A stretch of DNA of 64,000 nt from Pseudomonas tumuqii (GTDB lineage Bacteria; Pseudomonadota; Gammaproteobacteria; Pseudomonadales; Pseudomonadaceae). Both the position numbers and the translations under genes were made by a program. Shown in pieces: positions 19,563 to 31,356 of the stretch (positions within the stretch are counted from its first letter, which is position 1; every line of letters begins with the position of its first letter). The notes under the pieces are model-generated. The model saw nothing but the letters and a program-made list of their open reading frames with translations. It was not told where the DNA came from and ran no database searches. The DNA is taken from NCBI RefSeq assembly GCF_013184545.1, contig NZ_JAAOJA010000002.1:372001-436000 (forward strand), in the 5' to 3' direction.

Positions 19563-21962
19563 TTACGCCGGTTCGATCTCGACTGCCGCCGCGGCCTTGG
19601 CCGTTTGCTGCAATTTCTTCATTTGCTCCACGCCCCAGAGCACCCGCTCGGGGGTGGCGGGGGCATCGATGTTCGGCTGCACTTTGTAGTCGGCCAGGCT
19701 GGCCACCGCGTCCTTGATCGCGCACCACACGGCGATGCCGAGCATGAACGGCGGCTCGCCCACGGCCTTGGAGTGGAACACCGTGTCTTCCGGATTCTTG
19801 CGGTTCTCCACCAGCTTGACCCGCAGATCCAGCGGCATGTCGGCGATGGCCGGGATCTTGTAGCTGGCCGGACCATTGGTCATCAGCTTGCCTTTGCCGT
19901 TCCACACCAGCTCTTCCATGGTCAGCCAGCCCATGCCCTGGACGAAGGCGCCTTCGACCTGGCCGGTGTCGATGGCAGGGTTCAGCGAGGCGCCGACGTC
20001 GTGCAGGATGTCGGTGCGCAGCATTTTGTATTCGCCGGTCAGGGTGTCGACTATCACCTCGGCGCAAGCCGCACCGTAGGCGAAGTAATAGAAGGGGCGG
20101 CCGGCGGCCTTGTCACGGTCGTAGAAGATCTTCGGCGTGCGGTAGAAACCGGTGGAAGACAGCGAGACCTGGGCGAAGTAGGCCTTCTGGATCACTTCCT
20201 CGAAGGACAGGAACAGCCCGCGCACGCGCACCTGGCCGTTACGGAACTCGACGTCTTCCGCGGTGACCTTGTATTCGCGTACCAGGAAATCGACCAGGCG
20301 CTGCTTGATGGTCTCGGCGGCGTTCTGCGCGGCCTTGCCGTTAAGGTCGGCACCGCTGCTTGCCGCGGTCGGCGAGGTGTTCGGCACCTTGTCGGTGTTG
20401 GTCGCGGTGATCTGGATGCGCGAGATGTCCACCTGCAGCACCTCGGCGACCACCTGGGCGACCTTGGTGTTGAGGCCCTGGCCCATCTCGGTGCCGCCGT
20501 GATTCAGGTGGATGCTGCCGTCGGTGTAGATGTGGATCAGCGCGCCGGCCTGGTTGAGGAAGGTGGCGGTGAAGCTGATGCCGAATTTAACCGGGGTCAG
20601 TGCCAGACCTTTCTTCAATACAGGGCTCTTGGCATTGAAGGCACGGATTTCCTCGCGGCGCTTGGCGTACTCGCTGCTGGCCTCCAGCTCGGCGGTCATC
20701 TCGGCGAGCATGTTGTGCTCGACGGTCTGGTGGTAATGGGTGACGTTGCGCTCGGTCTTGCCGTAGTAGTTGAGCTTGCGCACCTGCAGCGGGTCCTTGC
20801 CCAGTTTGCGCGCCACCGCGTCCATGATTTCCTCGATGGCGACCATCCCTTGCGGGCCGCCGAAGCCGCGGTAGGCGGTGTTCGACGCGGTGTTGGTCTT
20901 GCAGCGATGGCCGTTGATGGTGGCGTTGCCGAGGTAGTAGGCATTGTCGGCGTGGAACATCGCGCGGTCGACGATCGAGCCAGACAGATCCGGCGAGTAG
21001 CCGCAGTTACCGGCCAGTTCGATCTGGATGCCGTGCAGCAGGCCGTCGTCGTCGAAGCCGACGTCGTATTCGACATAGAAGGGGTGACGCTTGCCGGTGA
21101 TGCTCATGTCTTCCATGCGCGGCAGGCGCATCTTGGTCGGCCGCCCGGTGAGGTGGGCGATCACTGCACAGAGGCACGCCGGGCCTGCGGCCTGGGTTTC
21201 CTTGCCGCCGAAACCGCCGCCCATGCGGCGCATGTCGATGACGATCTTGTGCATCGGCACGCCGAGCACTTCGGCCACCAATTTCTGCACTTCGGTGGCG
21301 TTCTGCGTGGAGGTGTAGACGATCATGCCGCCGTCTTCGCTGGGCATCACCGAGGAAATCTGGGTCTCCAGGTAGAAATGTTCTTGGCCGCCGATATGCA
21401 GGCTGCCTTGCAGGCGCTGCGGCGCAGTCGCCAATTCGGCAGCGGCATCGCCGATCTTGTGCTGATGGCTGTCGAGGACGAAATGCTTCTTGTGCAGCGC
21501 ATCGACCACGTCCAGCACCGGCTCCAGGTCTTCGTATTCGATGATCGCCGCCATGGCCGCCTTGCGCGCGGTTTCCAGGCTGTCGGCGCCGACCGCCAGC
21601 ACTACCTGGCCGACGTATTCCACCTTGCCGTCGGCCAGCAGCGGGTCGCCGGCGACCACCGGGCCGATGTCCAGCTGGCCGGGCACATCCTTGCTGGTGA
21701 TGGCGATGGCCACGCCGGGAATCGCATAGCAGGGCGCGGTGTCGATACTGACAATGCGCGCATGGGCGCGGTCGCTCATGCGGGCATAGACGTGCAACTG
21801 GTTGGGGAATTCCAGGCGGTCGTCGACATACACGGCTTCGCCGGATACGTGTTTGTCCGCGCTCTCGTGCTTGACGCTGCGGCCGACGCCGGTGGTGATG
21901 TCGGCGCGGAACAGTTCGGCCAGTTCGGCCTGGGTTTTCGGTGTGTTGTGGTGGTTAGACAT
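19563..21962 (-). CDS. xdhB: Xanthine dehydrogenase, molybdenum-binding subunit
   Basis: This 799-residue large subunit carries the molybdopterin active site that hydroxylates hypoxanthine/xanthine to urate. Visible marks are the aldehyde oxidase-like N-domain (VYVDDRLEFPNQLHVYAR), GGGFGGKETQAA, AYRGFGGPQGM (substrate-binding Arg), NHGGTEMGQGLNTK, and the catalytic-glutamate motif KAVGEPPFMLG near the C-terminus. The start overlaps the xdhA stop by eight bases, so expression of the subunits is coupled. Confidence 0.95.
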   Translation of the reverse strand: MSNHHNTPKTQAELAELFRADITTGVGRSVKHESADKHVSGEAVYVDDRLEFPNQLHVYARMSDRAHARIVSIDTAPCYAIPGVAIAITSKDVPGQLDIGPVVAGDPLLADGKVEYVGQVVLAVGADSLETARKAAMAAIIEYEDLEPVLDVVDALHKKHFVLDSHQHKIGDAAAELATAPQRLQGSLHIGGQEHFYLETQISSVMPSEDGGMIVYTSTQNATEVQKLVAEVLGVPMHKIVIDMRRMGGGFGGKETQAAGPACLCAVIAHLTGRPTKMRLPRMEDMSITGKRHPFYVEYDVGFDDDGLLHGIQIELAGNCGYSPDLSGSIVDRAMFHADNAYYLGNATINGHRCKTNTASNTAYRGFGGPQGMVAIEEIMDAVARKLGKDPLQVRKLNYYGKTERNVTHYHQTVEHNMLAEMTAELEASSEYAKRREEIRAFNAKSPVLKKGLALTPVKFGISFTATFLNQAGALIHIYTDGSIHLNHGGTEMGQGLNTKVAQVVAEVLQVDISRIQITATNTDKVPNTSPTAASSGADLNGKAAQNAAETIKQRLVDFLVREYKVTAEDVEFRNGQVRVRGLFLSFEEVIQKAYFAQVSLSSTGFYRTPKIFYDRDKAAGRPFYYFAYGAACAEVIVDTLTGEYKMLRTDILHDVGASLNPAIDTGQVEGAFVQGMGWLTMEELVWNGKGKLMTNGPASYKIPAIADMPLDLRVKLVENRKNPEDTVFHSKAVGEPPFMLGIAVWCAIKDAVASLADYKVQPNIDAPATPERVLWGVEQMKKLQQTAKAAAAVEIEPA

Positions 21963-23394
21963 AGGCGGTCACCCGGGTTTCGACTTCGGGAGCTTGCAGC
22001 TCGAGGAAGAATTTACGCAGCAGGTTCTGTGCGGTGAGCAGGCGGTATTCCTTGCTGGCGCGGAAGTCGCTGAGCGGGGTGAAGTCCTCGGCCAGGGCGG
22101 CGCAGGCGCGCTCGATCACCCCCGGATACCAGGCGGCGCCGGTCAGCGCGGCTTCGCAGGCGGCGGCGCGTTTGGGAATAGCGGCCATGCCGCCGAAGGC
22201 GATGCGCGCGCTTTGCACCACGCCATCCTCGATACGCAGGTTGAAGGCGGCGCAGACCGCGGAAATGTCGTCATCCAGGCGTTTGGAGACTTTGTAGGCG
22301 CGGAACGCCTGATTATGTTGGGCGCGCGGCACCAGGATCTTCTCGATGAATTCGGCTTCCTGGCGAGCGGTCACCTTGTAGTCGAGGAAATAATCCTCGA
22401 TCGCCAGGCTGCGCGTGTCGTTGCCCTTGCGCAGGACGATCTGCGCGCCGAGGGCGATCAGCAGCGGCGGGGCGTCGCCGATCGGCGAGGCGTTGCCGAT
22501 ATTGCCGCCGAGGGTGCCCTGGTTGCGGATCTGCAAGGAGGCGAAACGGTGCAGCAGCTCGTCGAAGTCCGGGTAGTCCTGGGCTAGGGCGGCGTAGCAA
22601 TCGGACAGCGCGGTGGCGGCGCCGATCTCGATGTGCTCGGCGGTCACTTCCACGCGCTTCATCGCTTCAATATGGCCAACGTAGATCATCACCGGCAGCT
22701 CGCGGTGGAACTGGGTAACTTCCAGCGCCAGGTCGGTGCCGCCAGCGAGCAGGCGCGCCTCGGGATTGGCGGCGTAGAGGTCGGCCAGGTCGGCGACGGT
22801 CAGCGGCAGCAGGCAACGCTTGTCGCCGCTATTGAGTTCGGCGGTTTCGCGCGGGGCGATGGCCTTCAGCTGGGCCACGGTCTGTGCTTCGGCGGCATCG
22901 AATTGATCAGGTTGCTTTTGGCAGCAGGCCTGCTCGGCGGCATCGATAATCGGTCGGTAGCCGGTGCAGCGACAGAGGTTACCGGCCAGGGCTTCCAGGG
23001 TGTCGGCCTTGTCGAAGCCATTGCTGTTCTTCTGCAGGGCGAACAGCGACATGACGAAGCCCGGGGTGCAGAAGCCGCACTGCGAACCATGGCAGTCGAC
23101 CATCGCCTGTTGCACGCTGTGCAGTTGGCCCTGGTGCTTGAGGTCTTCGACGCTGATCAGCTGCTTGCCGTGCAGGGCGGAGACGAAGGTCAGGCAGGAG
23201 TTCAGCGTGCGATAACGCACGCGTTCGCCATCCAGTTCGCCGACCACCACGGTGCAGGCACCGCAATCGCCGGAGGCGCAGCCTTCTTTGGTGCCAGGTT
23301 TGCCGACATGCTCGCGCAGGTACTGGAGCACGGTGACGTTGGGGTCCAGGGCATGCTCGGTGCGCAGCTCCCGGTTGAGTAAAAACTGGATCAA
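21955..23394 (-). CDS. xdhA: Xanthine dehydrogenase, FeS/FAD subunit
   Basis: This 479-residue subunit has an N-terminal plant-type [2Fe-2S] domain (CASGDCGACTVV), a second [2Fe-2S] domain (QCGFCTPGF and NLCRCTGYRPI), an FAD-binding domain (LLAGGTDLALE, GTLGGNIGNASPIGD) and a CO-dehydrogenase flavoprotein C-domain. Electrons pass from XdhB through these to NAD+. The start codon is a rare TTG at 23394, chosen because GGAGG lies at the correct distance and MIQFLLN matches the family start. Confidence 0.95.
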   Translation of the reverse strand: MIQFLLNRELRTEHALDPNVTVLQYLREHVGKPGTKEGCASGDCGACTVVVGELDGERVRYRTLNSCLTFVSALHGKQLISVEDLKHQGQLHSVQQAMVDCHGSQCGFCTPGFVMSLFALQKNSNGFDKADTLEALAGNLCRCTGYRPIIDAAEQACCQKQPDQFDAAEAQTVAQLKAIAPRETAELNSGDKRCLLPLTVADLADLYAANPEARLLAGGTDLALEVTQFHRELPVMIYVGHIEAMKRVEVTAEHIEIGAATALSDCYAALAQDYPDFDELLHRFASLQIRNQGTLGGNIGNASPIGDAPPLLIALGAQIVLRKGNDTRSLAIEDYFLDYKVTARQEAEFIEKILVPRAQHNQAFRAYKVSKRLDDDISAVCAAFNLRIEDGVVQSARIAFGGMAAIPKRAAACEAALTGAAWYPGVIERACAALAEDFTPLSDFRASKEYRLLTAQNLLRKFFLELQAPEVETRVTAYV

Positions 23395-23870: not shown

Positions 23871-25790
23871 TCACTTGTTGGGCTTGCCGCCGCCTTTGCC
23901 ACCGCCGCCACCGTCACTCACAGCCAGTGCAGCGGACATGGCGCTCCAGGCTGACGCCTGCTCGCCATTGCGCGCGCGGACACGGTAGCTGTAGCGGCCG
24001 GTGCCCACATCGTCGGTATAGCTGCGTGTTGCGCCGCTGCTCACTGGTATGACGGTAGTCGAGGTGATTCTTCCACTCTTGTGCAGGCTGTTGCGCTCGA
24101 TATCGAAACCGGTGACGTCCACGCCATCATGGCTCCAGTCCAGCTGCAGCGCCTGGTTGCCTTGCGCCAGGGTCACCAGCTGTACGCCGAGCGCCGCTGG
24201 CGCAGCGGGGATCACGGGCTCCGGCGGTGGCGCCAGGTCGCCTGTGGTCAGCGCGCCGTGCAGATTCAGCCGACCATGGCGGGTCCATTCCTGCATGTTC
24301 TGGCCCTGGGCGCCGGTCTTGTCGGCCCCGTTTTCCAGGCGCTGGCGCACCACCTGGTTGCAGGGCAGACCGTCCCACAGGCAAGTGTCTGGCTTCAGGT
24401 CCTGTTCGGATGAAAGCCCGCTGGCGTTCAGTGCCGCGTAGAGGTCCGTCCACACCAATGCCGCGCCGCCGGCCACCAGAGGCGCCGCCATCGAGGTGCC
24501 GTCCCACCAGTCGACGCAGCTGTCCACGCCGGATGCCAGGCCGCAGTGGGCATCCGGCAGAATGCCGATGATGCTCTGGCCCGGCGCGGCAAGTGACACC
24601 CAGGGATCGTTGATCTGGCTGTAGGTGGAGAAACTGGCGCGGTAATCGTTGTGGTCCGAGGCGGCCACGGCGATCACCGTCGATTCGCCGTTGGCATCGG
24701 TACAGGCGGCCGGGTACAGCCGCTGAGTGTCGCCATTGTTGCCCGCGCCGGCCACCACGACCACGCCCTGCTGATTGGCAAATAGCACGGCATCGCATTC
24801 GGCATTGGACGGAGTTGTGGGGCTGACCCCGCCATTTTCATCGATCCAGTCGCTGCCGTAGCTCATGCTGATCACGTGGTACTGGCTTCTGACCCGCGCA
24901 CCGTCCGCCATGCGGTCGCTGGACGCCTCGATGATCGCGGCCGCCGAAGCCGAAACCGGGCAGAGGCCGACGAAGAACAGGTTCACGCCATCGGTCAGCA
25001 GTTCCATGTAACAGACCTTGAAGATACCCGCCGCGGTGTGCCAGCCGGCGCCGGCAATGCCCAGGCCGTTATTGGTGTTGGCGACGATTTCGGAAGCGGT
25101 GAAGGTGCCATGGCCCAGGTTGTCGCAGGCAGGCTCCGACGCGGGACAGCTATCCCAGGCCTGATTGCCGACGAAGTCGACTTTTTCCAGGCACTTGCCG
25201 TTCAGTTCCAGGGTCGCGCAGTCGGCGCCGCTGTCCAGCACCGCCACCTTGGGCGTGGCGTAACCGGCGGGATCGCTGGTGGCGAGTCCCCGGCTGATGT
25301 CCCAGGCTTCGGGCGCGTCGATATCGGCATCGGCGGTGCCGCGTGTGCTCTGCAGGCTGGCGCCGAACGGCGTGCGTTGCACGTAAGTGTGGGCTTGCCG
25401 GGTGTTATGCAGGTACCACTGTTCCTCGAAATAATTGCCGCCGCCGACGGGTGTCGGGCCGGGCTCCTCGTTGGGCACCACCAGCAGGCGGTGGTAGTCG
25501 GGCTCGGCGTAGAGCACGTTCGGATTGGCCTGGTAGGCCGCCACCTTGGCGATCACCGAGCCGGCGGCAACCCCCACGACCTGGACATCGATAGCGGCAA
25601 TGCTGTCGAGCACGATTGCGGAGGCGCGCCGATGGGCTTCGGCAATCTGCGCCGCGGCCGTACCGGGTTTGAACTTGACCAATACACGGTCCGGGGCATA
25701 GCGCTCAGGAGCGGAAGGCGCAGGTTGGGCCTGAACCATGGCGGGGCAGAACACCCAGAGCAACACGAACATGAAACAGATGGGGCGCAT
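23871..25790 (-). CDS. Secreted S8 (subtilisin-family) serine protease
   Basis: This 639-residue exported protease has a signal peptide at the N-terminus (MRPICFMFVLLWVFCPAMVQA), an inhibitor-like pro-region (APDRVLVKFKPGT... to about residue 115), and a catalytic domain with D186 (VAVLDSGAD), H227 (NLGHGTFTAS) and S433 (GTSMAAP). A fibronectin-III-like domain follows (about 540-620), then a glycine/lysine tail. ATG at 25790 has GGGAGG eight bases upstream; earlier codons would bury the signal peptide. It is monocistronic. Many cysteines in the catalytic domain suggest disulfides. Confidence 0.9.
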   Translation of the reverse strand: MRPICFMFVLLWVFCPAMVQAQPAPSAPERYAPDRVLVKFKPGTAAAQIAEAHRRASAIVLDSIAAIDVQVVGVAAGSVIAKVAAYQANPNVLYAEPDYHRLLVVPNEEPGPTPVGGGNYFEEQWYLHNTRQAHTYVQRTPFGASLQSTRGTADADIDAPEAWDISRGLATSDPAGYATPKVAVLDSGADCATLELNGKCLEKVDFVGNQAWDSCPASEPACDNLGHGTFTASEIVANTNNGLGIAGAGWHTAAGIFKVCYMELLTDGVNLFFVGLCPVSASAAAIIEASSDRMADGARVRSQYHVISMSYGSDWIDENGGVSPTTPSNAECDAVLFANQQGVVVVAGAGNNGDTQRLYPAACTDANGESTVIAVAASDHNDYRASFSTYSQINDPWVSLAAPGQSIIGILPDAHCGLASGVDSCVDWWDGTSMAAPLVAGGAALVWTDLYAALNASGLSSEQDLKPDTCLWDGLPCNQVVRQRLENGADKTGAQGQNMQEWTRHGRLNLHGALTTGDLAPPPEPVIPAAPAALGVQLVTLAQGNQALQLDWSHDGVDVTGFDIERNSLHKSGRITSTTVIPVSSGATRSYTDDVGTGRYSYRVRARNGEQASAWSAMSAALAVSDGGGGGKGGGKPNK

Positions 25791-26227
25791 GGAAATTGCC
25801 TCCCTGATGCACTGCAACGACAGGTAGTGATACACCGTCAACCACAGGCAATGATGCGCCGCCCAACAGGCATGAATGCACCATACGACAGACAATAACG
25901 GTCAGCTTTGAAATCAGCGTAGAAGCTTTTCCGGGGCAAGGCCGAGGCCGTTGCGTCGCCTGAGAAGCTATCCGCTGGCGACTGTTTCATCATTGTTACA
26001 GGTGCGCGCCGGGTTGTTACGTTGATAATGGCCGTTATCGTGTTCGTGACGATGACGGCCGCAGCTTTCGAGCGAGTGACAACGCCGTCAGGCCAAGGGG
26101 CAGCACCTGGGCCGGGTGCTGTGCGACTGCCTGGGCAGCGGCTGGTTGCACCAATCTGGGGCGAGCATGCCGCGGCGAAAGCTTTCCGACCAGCGGTCGC
26201 TGGGCGGGATCCTGCGGCCGATCCTCT
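25791..26227. other. Gene-free space between the protease and the fusion enzyme
   Basis: This 437-base stretch has only short unsupported frames on either strand. It must contain the promoter of the minus-strand protease. I see no clear terminator for the fusion gene. Confidence 0.5.
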
Positions 26228-29200
26228 TCAGGGGGCGATCCACGCCTCGGCCTCCTCGTAGCGCTGCAGCGTCACCGGCACCCCGTTCAGCACCGCATTG
26301 CCCGACAAGGTGTCGACCAGTTGCTCGTCGGTGATGTCGTTGATGCTGATGCCCGGATGGGCCTGGGCGATGCCGATGCGCATGCCGGGGCGGTGGTGGC
26401 CCCAGCCGTGGGGCAGGCTGACCACGCCGGGCATGATGTCCTCGGTGATCTTCACCGTCACCAGCAACTCGCCCTTGGCCGATGCCAGCCGCGCCTGGTC
26501 GCGGTTGCCCAGGCCGTGGGTGGCGGCATCCTGCGGGTGGAGGAACAGCGCGCAGCGGTCCTTGCCCTTCACCAGCCGGTAGCTGTTGTGCATCCAGGAG
26601 TTGTTGGTGCGCAGGTCGCGCCGGCCGATCAGCAGCAGGCCGGGCTTGGCCGCCTGCTCGGCGAAGCGCTGGCACAGCCGGTCGAGATCGGCCACCAGCA
26701 GCGCCGGCGCCAGGTCGATCTTCTGGTCTTTGGTGAACAGCCGGCCGGGCAGCGATGGCTGCAACGGTCCCAGGTCGAGGCCATGGGGGTGCTTTTTCAG
26801 CTGCGCCAGGGACAGGCCCTTGCGGGCGAAGGGGTTGAGCCGCTGCAGCCAGCCGCCGCCGCTGCCGTAGGGCCCCGTGCGCAAGCCCCGGTCGAGGATG
26901 CGCTGGGGCGTGAGGAACTCGCCCAGTCGCGCGTTGACTTCATATTTGAGGCGCTGCTGCAGCGGCTTGTTGGCCATCTTGCGCCGTTCGATGCGTTTGC
27001 TCAGCTCGCTGAAGATGTCCCAGTCGGAGCGGGTGCCCGGCGGGTGGGCGAACAGCGGCTCGGCGTACTTGGCCATGTTGTGCACGGAGAACAGATTGAA
27101 CACCAGGTCGTACTGCTCGTGCTCGAACGGCCCGGTCGGCGGCAGGATGATATGGGCGTGGCGGGTGGTCTCGTTGAGGTAGAAGTCCACCGAGACCATG
27201 AACTCCAGCTGCTCCAGGGCCTGTTCCAGTTGTCGGCCGTTGGGCGAGGACAGCACCGGGTTGCCGGCGACGCTGACGAAGGCGCGCACCTGGCCCTTGC
27301 CGGGCACCAGCATTTCCTCGGCCAGCGCCGCGGCGGGTAGTTCGCGGCTGAATTCGGGCAGGCCGCGGACCCGGCTGCGATAGCGGTCGAAGCCGCCGCG
27401 GCCGGTGATTTTCAGCATGTCCACCGCCGGGGTGCTGAACATCATGCCGCCGGCGCTGTCGAGGTTGCCGGTGAGGATATTCAGCAGGTTGATCAGCCAG
27501 TGGTTGAGGGCGCCGAATTCCTGGGTAGAGATGCCCATGCGCCCGTAGCACACGGCCTTGTCGGCGCTGGCGTAGTCCACGGCGATGCGCTCGATGTCGG
27601 CGGCGGCGATGCCGGTCCGTTCGGCGATGCGCGCCAGCGGCATGCGCTCGAGCAGGACGCTCAGCGTCTCCCAGCCCTTGGCCAGTTCCAGCAGCCGCCC
27701 CGGCTTGCCCAGGCGGCGTTCGATGATCACCTGCAGCAGGCCGAGCAGGAACAGCGCGTCGGTGCCGGGCTGGATGAACTGGTGTTCGCTGACGTAGAGC
27801 GCGGTTTCCGTGCGCCGCGGGTCGATCAGCACGATCTTGCCGCCGCGGCCAGTGATGGCCTGCAGGCGGCCGAGCACATCCCCCGCCGACATCAGGCTGC
27901 CGTTGGAGGCCGCCGGGTTGGCGCCGAGCATCAGCATGTAGTCGGTGCGGTCGATGTCGGGGATGGTGAACAGCTGGCTGTGCCCGAACATCAGGTAGGA
28001 CACCAGCTGGTGCGGCATCTGGTCGAGGCTGGAGGCGGAGAACTGGTTGCGCGTGCCGAGCGCCTGGCGGAAGCGCCCCATGCTCAGCAGGATGCCCAGG
28101 TTGTGGGCGATGGGATTGCCCGAGTAGGCCGCCAGCGCATCGTTGCCGTGGCTGGCCTGGATATCCGTCAGGCGGCTGGCGACTTCCTCCAGGGCGTCGT
28201 CCCAGGAGATCGGCAGCCACTGCTCGCCGACGCGCTTGAGCGGCGTCTTCAGGCGCTCCGGATCGTTGTGCAGGTCCTGCATGGCGTAGCCTTTGGGGCA
28301 GATATGGCCGTGGCTGTGCGGGTCGTCCGGGTCGCCGGCGATGGAGAGGATCTTGTCGCCCTGGTATTCGATCTTGATGCCGCACATGGCCTCGCACAGG
28401 GTGCAGGTGCGCAAGTGGGTCTTGACCTCGATGCCGGCAATGCTCGCGCCTTGCTCGTTGGCGGCGCTCTCTACAGAAGCCGCCGCGGCTGGCTGCGCCT
28501 GGTCGGCCTGCTGCCGCCGATCGCGGATGATCTCCAGCATATGCGCGACTTCCACCACCTTGCGCCGCGGCCGGCCCTGGGGCTCGCCCTGTTCGCGCTC
28601 GTGCGCGTCGAGCAGGGTCCAGTCGGCGAAGGAGACGAACTCGATGCCGCGCGCCTCGAGCAGCGCCAGCACATCCGGGGTCTGTCCCGGCGCCAGCGGC
28701 GCGGGCGCCTCGGCCAGGTCCGCCACCAGGCGGTCGACGGAATCCACCGCGCACTGCTTGTTGCTGCCGATCACGCCGCTGGCGCCGCGCTTGATCCAGC
28801 CCGCCGCATATTCCCTGCTGGACCCACCCTGGTCGGCGAGGACCCGGCCGTTGTCGTTGGCGATCACCCCACGGCGCTCGTCGAAGGCCACTCCGCTAAT
28901 GGCTACGCCTTGATAGCCGGTGGCGTTCAGCACCAGGCCGGCGTCGAAGCGAAATTGCCGGTCGCTGGCCTGGGCGCTGACCGAACCGCGGCCGTCGTCC
29001 TGCAGGCTGTTGTGCACGCCCTGCATGGCGACGACGCGGTTGTCCTCGCCCGCGAAGCCGCTGGGCGAAGCCTTGAAGACGAAGCGGATAGCCCGGTCAG
29101 CCAGGAGTGGCCGGGCCTGGGCTTCCTGCAGCAGGGCCATATTGTGTCGGGCTTCGGTGTTCAGCGGCTCGGCCAGCTCCGCGGCGCTGACGGCGTCCAG

Positions 29201-30187
29201 CCGCAGGTCGTCGGCCTCCACCAGGATGTCCACGCCCGGGGTGTCCAGCAGTTGGCGCAGCTCCTTGGGAGTGAAGGCCGCCTGCACCGGTCCGCGCCGG
29301 GCGACCAGGCAGACCTCGCGGATATTGCTCTGGCGCAGGGCCTCCAGGGCATAGTCGGCGATGTCGGTGCGCTCCAGCTCCGCCACCGGCATGGCGAGGA
29401 TGCGCGCGATATCCAGCGCCACGTTGCCCATGCCGATCACCACCGCAGTGTCGCCGGACAGGTCGACCTGCAGTTCGCGATAGTCCGGGTGGCCGTTGTA
29501 CCAGCCGACGAAGGCCGAGGCCCCCTGGATATTGCCCAGCTCGGCGCCGGGCAGGGCCAGCGGCCGGCTGGCCGAGCCGCCGGTGGCGTAGAGCACCGCG
29601 TCGTAGTGCGCGAGCAGTTCGTCACGGCTCAGGTCGCGACCCAGTTCGACGTTGCCGAAGAAGCGCACCTTGGGCGAGCGGGCGATCTTGTCGAAACTGG
29701 CGGCCACCGACTTGATCTTCGGATGATCCGGGGCGACCCCGTAGCGCACCAGGCCGAAGGGTGTGGGCAGGCGCTCGAAGATATCCACGGTCGATCCCGG
29801 CAGCTGCCGGAGCATTTCGTCGGCGGCATAAAAGCCCGAGGGGCCGGCACCGATCACCGCCAGGCGGCGGGCCGGGCCGGCAGCGCGCGGCACCTTGGCC
29901 GTCATGCCGGCCTGGCTGTCGTCGACATCCAGGCTCTCGGTGATCGGCGGGTACTCCTTAGCCATGCGCGCGTTGAGTTCGATGTAGTCCTGCATCGGCG
30001 CCGGCACGGCGGAATCCGGGTAGATGGCGCGCACCGGGCATTCGGTCAGGCAGGCGTTGCAGTCGATGCACACCAGAGGGTCGATATAGAGCATCTGCGG
30101 GCCTTCGCGGAAGGCTTCCACCGGGCACACGTCCACACACTTGGTGTATCGGTCGCCCAAACAGCTTGCGGTTACGACGTATGCCAT
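26228..30187 (-). CDS. Three-part fusion: 7Fe-type ferredoxin, NADPH-ferredoxin reductase-like flavoprotein, bis-MGD molybdoenzyme
   Basis: This single 1319-residue frame starts at ATG 30187 with AGGAGAG seven bases upstream. Residues 1-60 are a ferredoxin whose cysteines (9, 17, 21, 40, 43, 46, 50) follow the Azotobacter FdI 7Fe pattern. Residues of about 105-560 resemble FprA/adrenodoxin-reductase flavoproteins: FAD loop VIGAGPSGFYAA, NADPH loop VVIGMGNVALDIAR, and ATGYQG. After a linker rich in Ala/Gln, residues 590-1319 form a molybdopterin oxidoreductase with a [4Fe-4S] motif beginning C595 (CTLCEAMC...HICPKG) and a C-terminal dinucleotide-binding domain (PHGWGHHRPG). The expected Mo-ligand region reads NQFSASSLDQMPH, so Cys/Sec is not obvious. 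Electron flow NADPH-FAD-FeS-Mo within one chain is inferred; the substrate is unknown. No signal peptide is seen, so it is cytoplasmic. Confidence 0.88.
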   Translation of the reverse strand: MAYVVTASCLGDRYTKCVDVCPVEAFREGPQMLYIDPLVCIDCNACLTECPVRAIYPDSAVPAPMQDYIELNARMAKEYPPITESLDVDDSQAGMTAKVPRAAGPARRLAVIGAGPSGFYAADEMLRQLPGSTVDIFERLPTPFGLVRYGVAPDHPKIKSVAASFDKIARSPKVRFFGNVELGRDLSRDELLAHYDAVLYATGGSASRPLALPGAELGNIQGASAFVGWYNGHPDYRELQVDLSGDTAVVIGMGNVALDIARILAMPVAELERTDIADYALEALRQSNIREVCLVARRGPVQAAFTPKELRQLLDTPGVDILVEADDLRLDAVSAAELAEPLNTEARHNMALLQEAQARPLLADRAIRFVFKASPSGFAGEDNRVVAMQGVHNSLQDDGRGSVSAQASDRQFRFDAGLVLNATGYQGVAISGVAFDERRGVIANDNGRVLADQGGSSREYAAGWIKRGASGVIGSNKQCAVDSVDRLVADLAEAPAPLAPGQTPDVLALLEARGIEFVSFADWTLLDAHEREQGEPQGRPRRKVVEVAHMLEIIRDRRQQADQAQPAAAASVESAANEQGASIAGIEVKTHLRTCTLCEAMCGIKIEYQGDKILSIAGDPDDPHSHGHICPKGYAMQDLHNDPERLKTPLKRVGEQWLPISWDDALEEVASRLTDIQASHGNDALAAYSGNPIAHNLGILLSMGRFRQALGTRNQFSASSLDQMPHQLVSYLMFGHSQLFTIPDIDRTDYMLMLGANPAASNGSLMSAGDVLGRLQAITGRGGKIVLIDPRRTETALYVSEHQFIQPGTDALFLLGLLQVIIERRLGKPGRLLELAKGWETLSVLLERMPLARIAERTGIAAADIERIAVDYASADKAVCYGRMGISTQEFGALNHWLINLLNILTGNLDSAGGMMFSTPAVDMLKITGRGGFDRYRSRVRGLPEFSRELPAAALAEEMLVPGKGQVRAFVSVAGNPVLSSPNGRQLEQALEQLEFMVSVDFYLNETTRHAHIILPPTGPFEHEQYDLVFNLFSVHNMAKYAEPLFAHPPGTRSDWDIFSELSKRIERRKMANKPLQQRLKYEVNARLGEFLTPQRILDRGLRTGPYGSGGGWLQRLNPFARKGLSLAQLKKHPHGLDLGPLQPSLPGRLFTKDQKIDLAPALLVADLDRLCQRFAEQAAKPGLLLIGRRDLRTNNSWMHNSYRLVKGKDRCALFLHPQDAATHGLGNRDQARLASAKGELLVTVKITEDIMPGVVSLPHGWGHHRPGMRIGIAQAHPGISINDITDEQLVDTLSGNAVLNGVPVTLQRYEEAEAWIAP

Positions 30188-30244
30188 TTTTTACTCTCCT
30201 GCCCGTGACCTGTAGGCCGCCCCGGTAATCCCCGGGTTGCAGCA

Positions 30245-30310
30245 TTGACTGCTGGCAATCTAGGGCCTTCGGGTTCTGCCGTCTTGACACCAGGGCACCC
30301 TGTTTGACAT
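30245..30310. promoter_or_regulatory. TTGACW direct repeats in the divergent fusion/araC promoter
   Basis: TTGACT (30245), TTGACA (30284) and TTGACA (30304) lie in the same orientation, 39 and 20 bases apart. Each is followed within 5-7 bases by GGCA-, GCAC- or GCCA-like sequence. AraC-family activators bind such direct repeats at two-turn spacing. The 155-base region is shared by the two divergent genes. Confidence 0.5.
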
Positions 30311-30342
30311 TTTGTGCCATACCCTGGAAATCCGGAATCCGC

Positions 30343-31356
30343 ATGTCGAAGGACGTCTATATCTCCTGCGCCCTGGCCGAAACCCTGCGCGACTACATCG
30401 ACAAGAACCAGTTGACCGCACCCGACGTGCTCGAGGCCCTCGCGCCTTACTCCAGTAGTCAGCGCATGCCGATCCTGCCGTTCTGGGGCGCGCTGGAGCG
30501 GCTGCAGGCCCTGCACCCGGTGCCGGCGCTGGGCCTGCGTATCGGTCGCTGCGCCAAACCACAGCATTTTGGCGTGGTCGGTTATCTGGCTGCGTCCTGC
30601 AGCGGCCTGGGCCAGGCGCTGATGCGCTACCGGCGCTTCCAGACCCTGCTGGTGAGCGATCTCGATATCCAGGTGAGTCGGCGGGGCGAGGTTATCCGCT
30701 ACAGCTGGGGGGACGGCGAGCATCACACCACGCCACTGGCCAGCGAGTTCGGGGTGGCGGCCTTCGTCAACCTGTACCAGGCGCTGATCGGCCAGGCCAT
30801 TGCGCCAAGCGCCATCGAAATTCCCTATGCGCGGCCAGCCGAGCCCGCCATCTATGAAGCGCTGATGGGCTGTCCGGTGCGTTTCGAGGCGCGCTGTCAC
30901 GCCCTGGAGATACCCGCCAGCCTGCTGGCCATGCACATCACCAGCAGCGACCCCTATATGCGCGGCCTGTTCGACCAGCAGGCCCAGGCCATGCTGGCGC
31001 AACAGCCCGGGCCCGATCAGTTCATCGAGCAATTGCAGCAGCACCTGATGGTCGCGCTGCAGGAGGGCGAGCCTTCCGCGGCCACCCTGGCCGGCCGCAT
31101 GAACTGTTCCCTGCGCTCGTTCTATCGGCAGTTGGCGCTGCATGGCTTGCGTTACCGCACCTTGCTCGGCGATGTGCGCTTCAAGCTGGCGCGCATGTAC
31201 CTCGCCGATCCCCGCCTGTCGCTGGCGGAGATTGCCCTGTTGCTGGGCTATTCCGAGCAGAGCGCCTTTACCCGCGCCTTCCGCGCCTGGAGCGGCAGCA
31301 CCCCGCAGGGCCACCGGCGCCACTTGCAATCAGCGTCCTCCGCTGCCTCGCCCTGA
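30343..31356 (+). CDS. AraC-family regulator with arabinose-binding-like N-domain
   Basis: This 337-residue regulator belongs to the OruR-like group: an N-terminal PF12625-type domain (residues 15-205, with HFGVVGYLAASCSGLGQAL) and a C-terminal AraC double helix-turn-helix (residues 235-330, with AEIALLLGYSEQSAFTRAFRAWSG). ATG at 30343 is preferred to TTG at 30304, which would fall in the repeat region. Being divergent from the fusion enzyme, it is the obvious candidate for its control; the inducer is unknown. Confidence 0.88.
   Translation: MSKDVYISCALAETLRDYIDKNQLTAPDVLEALAPYSSSQRMPILPFWGALERLQALHPVPALGLRIGRCAKPQHFGVVGYLAASCSGLGQALMRYRRFQTLLVSDLDIQVSRRGEVIRYSWGDGEHHTTPLASEFGVAAFVNLYQALIGQAIAPSAIEIPYARPAEPAIYEALMGCPVRFEARCHALEIPASLLAMHITSSDPYMRGLFDQQAQAMLAQQPGPDQFIEQLQQHLMVALQEGEPSAATLAGRMNCSLRSFYRQLALHGLRYRTLLGDVRFKLARMYLADPRLSLAEIALLLGYSEQSAFTRAFRAWSGSTPQGHRRHLQSASSAASP

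Follow-up and report, generated by a model that had tools for sequence, protein, structure and literature searches.

A ferredoxin-FprA-molybdoenzyme fusion of Pseudomonas tumuqii as a probable single-chain, NADPH-driven molybdenum reductase

What is the function of a protein that carries a ferredoxin, a flavoprotein dependent on nicotinamide adenine dinucleotide phosphate (NADPH) and a complete molybdenum (Mo) enzyme on one chain? Such a protein, hereafter the fusion, is encoded in a 64,000-nucleotide stretch of Pseudomonas tumuqii DNA (contig NZ_JAAOJA010000002.1, positions 372,001 to 436,000), which is referred to as the window. Our analysis suggests that it is probably a soluble, AraC-inducible Mo reductase, in which NADPH electrons would pass through flavin adenine dinucleotide (FAD) to the ferredoxin clusters, then to the [4Fe-4S] cluster of the Mo domain and finally to a Mo centre likely held by Asp722. 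This centre would remove an oxygen atom from the substrate (XO + NADPH + H+ -> X + NADP+ + H2O), as is typical for reductases of the dimethyl sulfoxide (DMSO) reductase superfamily, and an oxygenated organic molecule is a more likely substrate than nitrate or formate. With enzyme and redox partners in one chain, the fusion would be a molybdenum counterpart of a self-sufficient cytochrome P450. The features of the gene and its product are as follows:

26228..30187, minus strand: fusion gene, 1,319 codons plus stop (frame, Pfam, PDB and homologues)
30194..30200, minus strand: AGGAGAG, ribosome-binding-site-like, six bases 5' of the ATG (sequence)
29924..30187, minus strand: 7Fe-type ferredoxin domain, residues 1-88 (ferredoxin I match and Cys pattern)
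28526..29866, minus strand: FprA/adrenodoxin-reductase-type FAD/NADPH domain, residues 108-554 (1lqt match and motifs)
28271..28408, minus strand: [4Fe-4S] motif of the Mo domain, C595-x2-C-x3-C-x27-C630, plus K632 (Pfam and conservation)
26993..28255, minus strand: molybdopterin oxidoreductase domain, residues 645-1065 (Pfam)
28022..28024, minus strand: codon of Asp722 (aligned with FdhH Sec140 and the Cys of Nas/NasN)
26282..26638, minus strand: molydopterin dinucleotide-binding domain, residues 1184-1302, with R1189 R1190 and N1195-N-S-W-M-H-N1201 (Pfam)

A sequence-only reading of this DNA had described one uninterrupted 1319-codon frame with a good ribosome-binding site, and both are present, the frame running on the minus strand from the ATG at 30187 to the TGA at 26230-26228. 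Pfam, NCBIfam and PDB searches of the whole protein recovered the three modules of that reading, in the order 7Fe-type ferredoxin, FprA-type NADPH/FAD domain and MopB domain (DMSO reductase superfamily). All seven ferredoxin cysteines that it had named are in place and follow the 3Fe-4S plus 4Fe-4S pattern of 7Fe ferredoxins (Cys 9/17/50 and Cys 21/40/43/46, respectively), a cluster assignment, like the meaning of the seven-Cys pattern, that we presume by analogy with ferredoxin I, the PDB match of residues 2-87. Since the match to the NCBIfam model FdxA_Protbact, over positions 1-89 of its 104, reached 104 bits where the cut-off is 135, the domain is labelled ferredoxin-like by its pattern and not an FdxA equivalog. 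The next domain belongs to the FprA/adrenodoxin-reductase family by full-length similarity to 1lqt (residues 109-553, E 7e-105) and by its FAD/NADPH motifs, G252-x-G-N-V-A and A296-R297-R298-G299. The cluster motif said to begin at C595 was likewise recovered (Cys 595, 598, 602 and 630), and three Pfam domains above their curated cut-offs place the C-terminal part in MopB: Molybdop_Fe4S4 (594-639, 46.2 bits vs 22.7), Molybdopterin (645-1065, 114.7 vs 24) and Molydop_binding (1184-1302, 71.2 vs 26.8); Pyr_redox_2 and Fer4 were also at or above theirs. From family knowledge, the protein would bind FAD, Fe-S clusters and a bis(molybdopterin guanine dinucleotide) molybdenum cofactor, and it is predicted to be cytoplasmic and soluble. 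The best PDB match of the Mo domain was FdhF of the hydrogen-dependent carbon dioxide reductase (residues 592-1071), and the nearest solved fold of its model was NapA, tied with formate dehydrogenase (FDH) and ArrA; a VIA-align structural comparison gave no NarG-like or EbdA-like enzyme among the 50 matches listed, which is no proof of anything. No NCBIfam enzyme name can be assigned to this domain, because all models listed (at least 25 of 27) lie far below their cut-offs, among them Fdh-alpha (207 bits vs 666), NasC (195 vs 1,100) and PhsA (191 vs 694).

What sets the Mo domain apart is the residue expected to hold the metal. The sequence SASSLDQ, which the earlier reading had pointed out in the region of the Mo-ligating Cys or Sec, does occupy residues 717-723, and the residue in the ligand column is Asp722, not a serine; Ser720 was rejected as ligand, being two columns off the Sec position and Thr in 11 of 103 fusions. 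The Sec/Cys column of FDH holds Asp in every ungapped row of the family checked (in the 37-row alignment NarG rows aligned poorly there), and the Mo centre is therefore likely held by Asp722. Together with the clade of the domain and its NCBIfam scores, this residue supports the earlier suspicion that the chemistry would differ from that of FDH or nitrate reductase, and by sequence the fusion would be no known member of either group.

The same fusion occurs well beyond this genome. A homologue search scored 7,996 candidates and found 3,400, and among the best 120 of these, 103 were full-length fusions of at least 1,200 aa (1,238-1,341), with the same domain order and 51-92% identity. Among the matches listed they come mostly from Gammaproteobacteria, with source names that include Halopseudomonas, Microbulbifer, Marinospirillum, Alteromonas, Acinetobacter, Alkalilimnicola and Shewanella woodyi; the contig of one (L010) bears the label Oligoflexia, and others lie on the named contigs L009, L012, L013, L015 and L041. 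A contig of Pseudomonas sp. SJZ079 matches at 90% identity. Ferredoxin Cys 40, 43, 46 and 50 are kept in 103/103 fusions and Cys 9, 17 and 21 in 101, with a gap in two; G-x-G-N-V-A, R297, the [4Fe-4S] Cys motif of the Mo domain and K632 are found in all 103, and at position 298, 89 of them have Arg and the other 14 Lys. Per genome the fusion is rare, being complete in 2/199 sampled genomes of the genus (the second, G041, at 91% identity), 8/390 of the order and 1/369 of the class (the window's own genome). The earlier statement that these parts are normally separate thus holds for most genomes; it does not hold strictly, as two-domain ferredoxin-FprA proteins exist and the fusion family exceeds 100 sequences. 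A misassembly joining separate genes, or a dead fusion, could be suspected from the rarity in the genus, but it is refuted by the many independent contigs and more than 100 homologues that carry the same fusion with intact motifs, and we give it virtually no chance. A 1,380-aa apparent fusion (L045) was rejected, its first 640 codons having a non-coding GC pattern. On the plus strand, an antisense open frame of 902 codons (27500-30208) was taken as non-coding; GC at third codon positions is 0.91 in the fusion gene, and long antisense open frames are common in GC-rich DNA.

In which direction would the electrons move? A second single-chain form of the Asp-type family ends in flavodoxin, FAD_binding_1 and NAD_binding_1 domains, a CysJ-like diflavin module (501 bits, cut-off 668). 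It was found at five loci (L033, 8010-11744; L037; L038; L044; L086; 1,241-1,256 aa; three domain-scanned) on contigs labelled Woeseia, Woeseiaceae and Hellea, and 83 of 120 listed homologues of L033 (P0121-P0203) are full-length proteins of this kind, above 1,150 aa. These proteins resemble the fusion in their Mo family (46% identity), single chain and NADPH-type module, but their module is CysJ-type and C-terminal, and L033, L037 and L038 fall outside the 55-row fusion clade of a 114-row tree. To judge by these sequences, the Asp-type family has acquired a second NADPH module separately. CysJ-like partners are donor flavoproteins, and since an unrelated second NADPH module serves the same Mo family, electrons would flow from NADPH to Mo.

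A precedent for such a design is known. Tan et al. are said to have described, in 2020, NasN of Mycobacterium smegmatis (MSMEG_4206), a diflavin-containing monomeric assimilatory nitrate reductase. In the portions available of two sources, NasN is a single-chain MopB reductase driven by NADPH via flavins, and like the fusion it unites an NADPH-flavin reductase and a MopB domain with a [4Fe-4S] cluster (PMC7816997, PMC9687028). It differs in having a diflavin module in place of ferredoxin-FprA, and two proteins classed as NasN-type by annotation and architecture (L134, L135) have Cys in the ligand column, about 24% identity to the fusion and a different clade. At L104, the gene immediately preceding an Asp-type Mo gene is FprA-like (44% identity). 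Given the diflavin module, the FprA and ferredoxin genes adjoining Mo genes and the precedent of NasN, NADPH is the probable donor and the reductive direction is favoured; the comparative evidence thus favours the self-contained NADPH-linked Mo enzyme that the sequence-only reading had put forward.

The ferredoxin-FprA module itself is more widespread. Actinobacterial proteins, which we take to be FprB-type, share the order of 7Fe ferredoxin and FprA and have no Mo domain; a Rhodococcus FAD-dependent oxidoreductase is 41.5% identical to fusion residues 1-558, and two-domain proteins of this kind stand alone on Rhodococcus, Mycobacterium and Streptomyces plasmids. Rhizobium CB3090 has ferredoxin, FprA, Mo and moaA as separate genes in the same order as the fusion; in Allorhizobium ampelinum S4, Agrobacterium vitis, Thioclava and Methylophaga the Mo gene comes first, then ferredoxin and FprA and after these moaA or glp, and the first three of these four have an AraC gene at the opposite flank. 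Five plasmid-borne operons with Cys-type Mo genes (L132, L133, L136, L137, L139) combine a ferredoxin and an FprA-like gene with moaA or glp, and three of them contain (L132, L133, L139) a divergent AraC gene.

The gene facing the fusion offers a view of its control:

30343..31356, plus strand: divergent AraC-family regulator, 337 aa from MSKDV, PF12625 plus HTH_18 (Pfam)
30304..30319, minus strand: conserved 16-mer TGGCACAAAATGTCAA, predicted AraC-family operator (comparison of intergenic regions)
30281..30289, minus strand: second box TGTCAAGAC, which would be a further AraC half-site near -35 (comparison)
30257..30262, minus strand: TAGATT, predicted -10-like hexamer 27 bases on from the start of the second box (comparison)

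Of the 16 distinct fusion loci with upstream DNA, 15 have a divergent AraC-type gene facing the fusion; this count leaves out L014 and L016, whose contigs start inside the gene, and L100, judged by its length and layout to be the same contig as L011. Between regulator and fusion, TGGCACAAAATGTCAA is exact in 13/15 (one mismatch in L097, two in L103); it is followed after 11-14 bases by the second box (TGTCAAGAC or TGTCAATAC, with variants) in 14/15, L011 lacking it, and a TANNNT hexamer lies 27-28 bases from the start of that box in 13/14, the exception being L096. Box and hexamer were seen by comparison only, as a pattern fitted by eye to 15 regions, and a sigma-70 scan of 25880-30420 gave no promoter-like site. 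In this genome the exact TGGCACAAAATGTCAA occurs once; with up to two mismatches three sites appear where the reversed control has one, so the inexact sites are no evidence. Across the order, the exact 16-mer was found in 5/390 genomes (G000, G643, G705, G787, G806), once each and directly before the fusion gene, and in 0/382 genomes lacking a full-length fusion hit; its reversed control had no match, and three of the eight fusion genomes lack the exact sequence. Because TGGCACAAAATGTCAA and the divergent AraC gene track the fusion, regulator, operator and enzyme behave as one cassette. The AraC-type protein is predicted to bind both TGGCACAAAATGTCAA and the second box near -35; it would switch on the fusion gene in response to a small organic compound, which is likely to be the substrate.

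Where the Asp-type lineage belongs in MopB was approached with two trees. In the 37-row tree, Asp-type rows form a single clade (100/100) that groups with the FDH and assimilatory nitrate reductase (Nas) rows (99/98), outside the Nas/NasN rows themselves and apart from NarG, whose rows form a separate clade (100/100); this placement outside the type II (NarG/EbdA) clade is to be read with only six NarG-type rows, an uncertain midpoint root on a weak branch (59/9) and two long rows (L156, FdoG). The 114-row tree was made by a quick method that leaves 32/111 inner branches open. Of its 51 rows labelled fusion, 50 fall in a 55-row clade (support 100) and one, L045, is a labelling error; the rows labelled stand-alone in that clade include L014 and L016, which start at a contig end, and P0107, an 856-aa protein. 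Asp-coordinating MopB enzymes listed in a table of the available text of one review include NarG, PcrA, EbdA and DdhA; in these, Asp has been shown to be the protein ligand of Mo, as is predicted for the fusion, but they are mostly periplasmic subunits of respiration or anaerobic degradation, and Asgard archaeal Asp-coordinating homologues of unassigned function are also mentioned (PMC10100899). We tentatively suggest, at slightly less than even confidence, that the fusion is the single-chain member of a so far unrecognised molybdoenzyme lineage, which gained its Asp ligand inside the Cys/Sec (FDH/Nas) branch independently of NarG, is soluble and NADPH-driven, became self-sufficient at least twice, via the unrelated partners ferredoxin-FprA and a CysJ-type diflavin module, and has its own AraC sensor and operator, through which the substrate could be named.

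Stand-alone members are far more common. A relative of the Mo domain (E <1e-180) occurs in 181/199 genomes of the genus, the listed rows being stand-alone except for two fusions, and the same genome has the paralogue L002 (C2:85398-87488), next to a gene reading like argF, which has 53% identity to residues 589-1308 and Asp in the same column but no fused donor. We know of no function for stand-alone proteins of the L002 type, and a literature search covering few subscription journals found no activity for any member of the Asp-type family, nor a prior description of the fusion. Apart from the proteins compared here, a 720-aa stand-alone molybdopterin oxidoreductase of M. smegmatis, MSMEG_6816, is not needed for nitrate assimilation, and its reported induction under nitrogen starvation is 30-fold (PMC7816997). 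Family Mo genes on two Streptomyces plasmids (L130, L131; 43-45% identity) adjoin tyrosine 2,3-aminomutase, AMP-binding or nonribosomal peptide synthetase and flavin hydroxylase genes, a setting that resembles a natural-product cluster or its immediate surroundings. In L017, L022, L031 and L033 the family Mo gene is followed closely on its 3' side by a DUF1330-like gene (weak Pfam match in L033, E 7e-4, below cut-off; by reading only in the others).

Other functions can be set against an NADPH-driven reductase. The Mo domain might oxidise a substrate, such as formate, and FprA pass the electrons to NADP+; FprA-type reductases are reversible, and it is formate dehydrogenases that match the Mo domain best in the PDB and in NCBIfam. 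Yet FdhH Sec140 and His141 align with Asp722 and Gln723 and the Arg333 stretch falls in a gap, so that the ligand, adjacent His and catalytic Arg of FDH (numbers and roles as we take them to be) are absent, and the low Fdh-alpha score and the donor nature of the CysJ-like partner also make such a dehydrogenase quite improbable. A second rival is a NasN-like assimilatory nitrate reductase whose NADPH module is of another type; it would fit the single chain and the use of NADPH through flavins (PMC7816997, PMC9687028, as far as their available text goes), as well as the NapA-like fold. Against it, L134, L135 and a Nas-like protein of the same genome (L005) have Cys in the ligand column and belong to another clade, the NasC score is far below cut-off, and nirBD adjoins L135 while none was noticed in the listed fusion loci, where no search was aimed at it; we regard this as very improbable.

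A role in lipid or hydrocarbon metabolism, as hydroxylation, hydration or reduction of acyl-CoA, ketone or sterol compounds, is suggested by two neighbourhoods. L104 (1223-13930) clusters genes for an AraC-like protein, a flavin-containing monooxygenase-like protein, the FprA-like protein, the Asp-type Mo protein, a wax ester synthase/diacylglycerol acyltransferase, two short-chain dehydrogenases/reductases (SDR) and an AMP-ligase (SDR and AMP-ligase named by cluster membership), a layout that to us recalls the mymA operon; in Deinococcus QL22, SDR, MaoC, acyl-CoA dehydrogenase and thioesterase genes lie upstream and a fatty-acid CoA ligase gene downstream. Both, however, are stand-alone relatives (31% and 52% identity), other Deinococcus plasmids have different neighbours, SDR (15/112 loci) and AMP-ligase genes (14/112) were counted without a background control, so that no enrichment can be claimed, and no constant neighbour besides the regulator was seen in the fusion loci listed. 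This role seems unlikely, if less so than the two before.

The proposal of an NADPH-driven, AraC-controlled reductase has to be held against several observations that weigh on the other side. The reversibility of FprA-type enzymes is one. The Asp722-Mo contact is drawn from alignment, because the structure model contains no cofactors, and the model of the ferredoxin-FprA part is weak (predicted local distance difference test score 70.2, from 8 sequences). Most relatives fetched are stand-alone proteins with no fused reductase, a frameshift in its contig breaks the fusion in L034, and L098 has an intact fusion, lacks the AraC-type regulator and shows no TGGCACAAAATGTCAA in the 200 bases before the gene. 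Finally, the Mo proteins of the separate-gene ferredoxin/FprA operons are mostly Cys-type (about 23% identity to the fusion), so the module serves more than one Mo family and these operons support the module, not the exact fusion enzyme.

Known Asp-ligated molybdoenzymes form one respiratory and anaerobic-degradation branch, and the FDH and Nas branch uses Cys or Sec, according to the available parts of reviews (including PMC10100899). If our reading is true, an NADPH-powered Asp lineage grouping with the Cys/Sec branch would open a large unstudied enzyme family, with a close relative of no function known to us in most sampled genomes of the genus. To assay the single-chain form, NADPH should suffice as donor, and the design of one regulator and one operator would give a direct route to the substrate.

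As for the rest of the window, Rfam gave nothing at gathering scores between 22000 and 34000. Two minus-strand genes at 19563-23394 read like subunits of xanthine dehydrogenase, another molybdoenzyme near the fusion, and a gene reading like a subtilisin-like protease (23871-25895) lies between them and the fusion gene.

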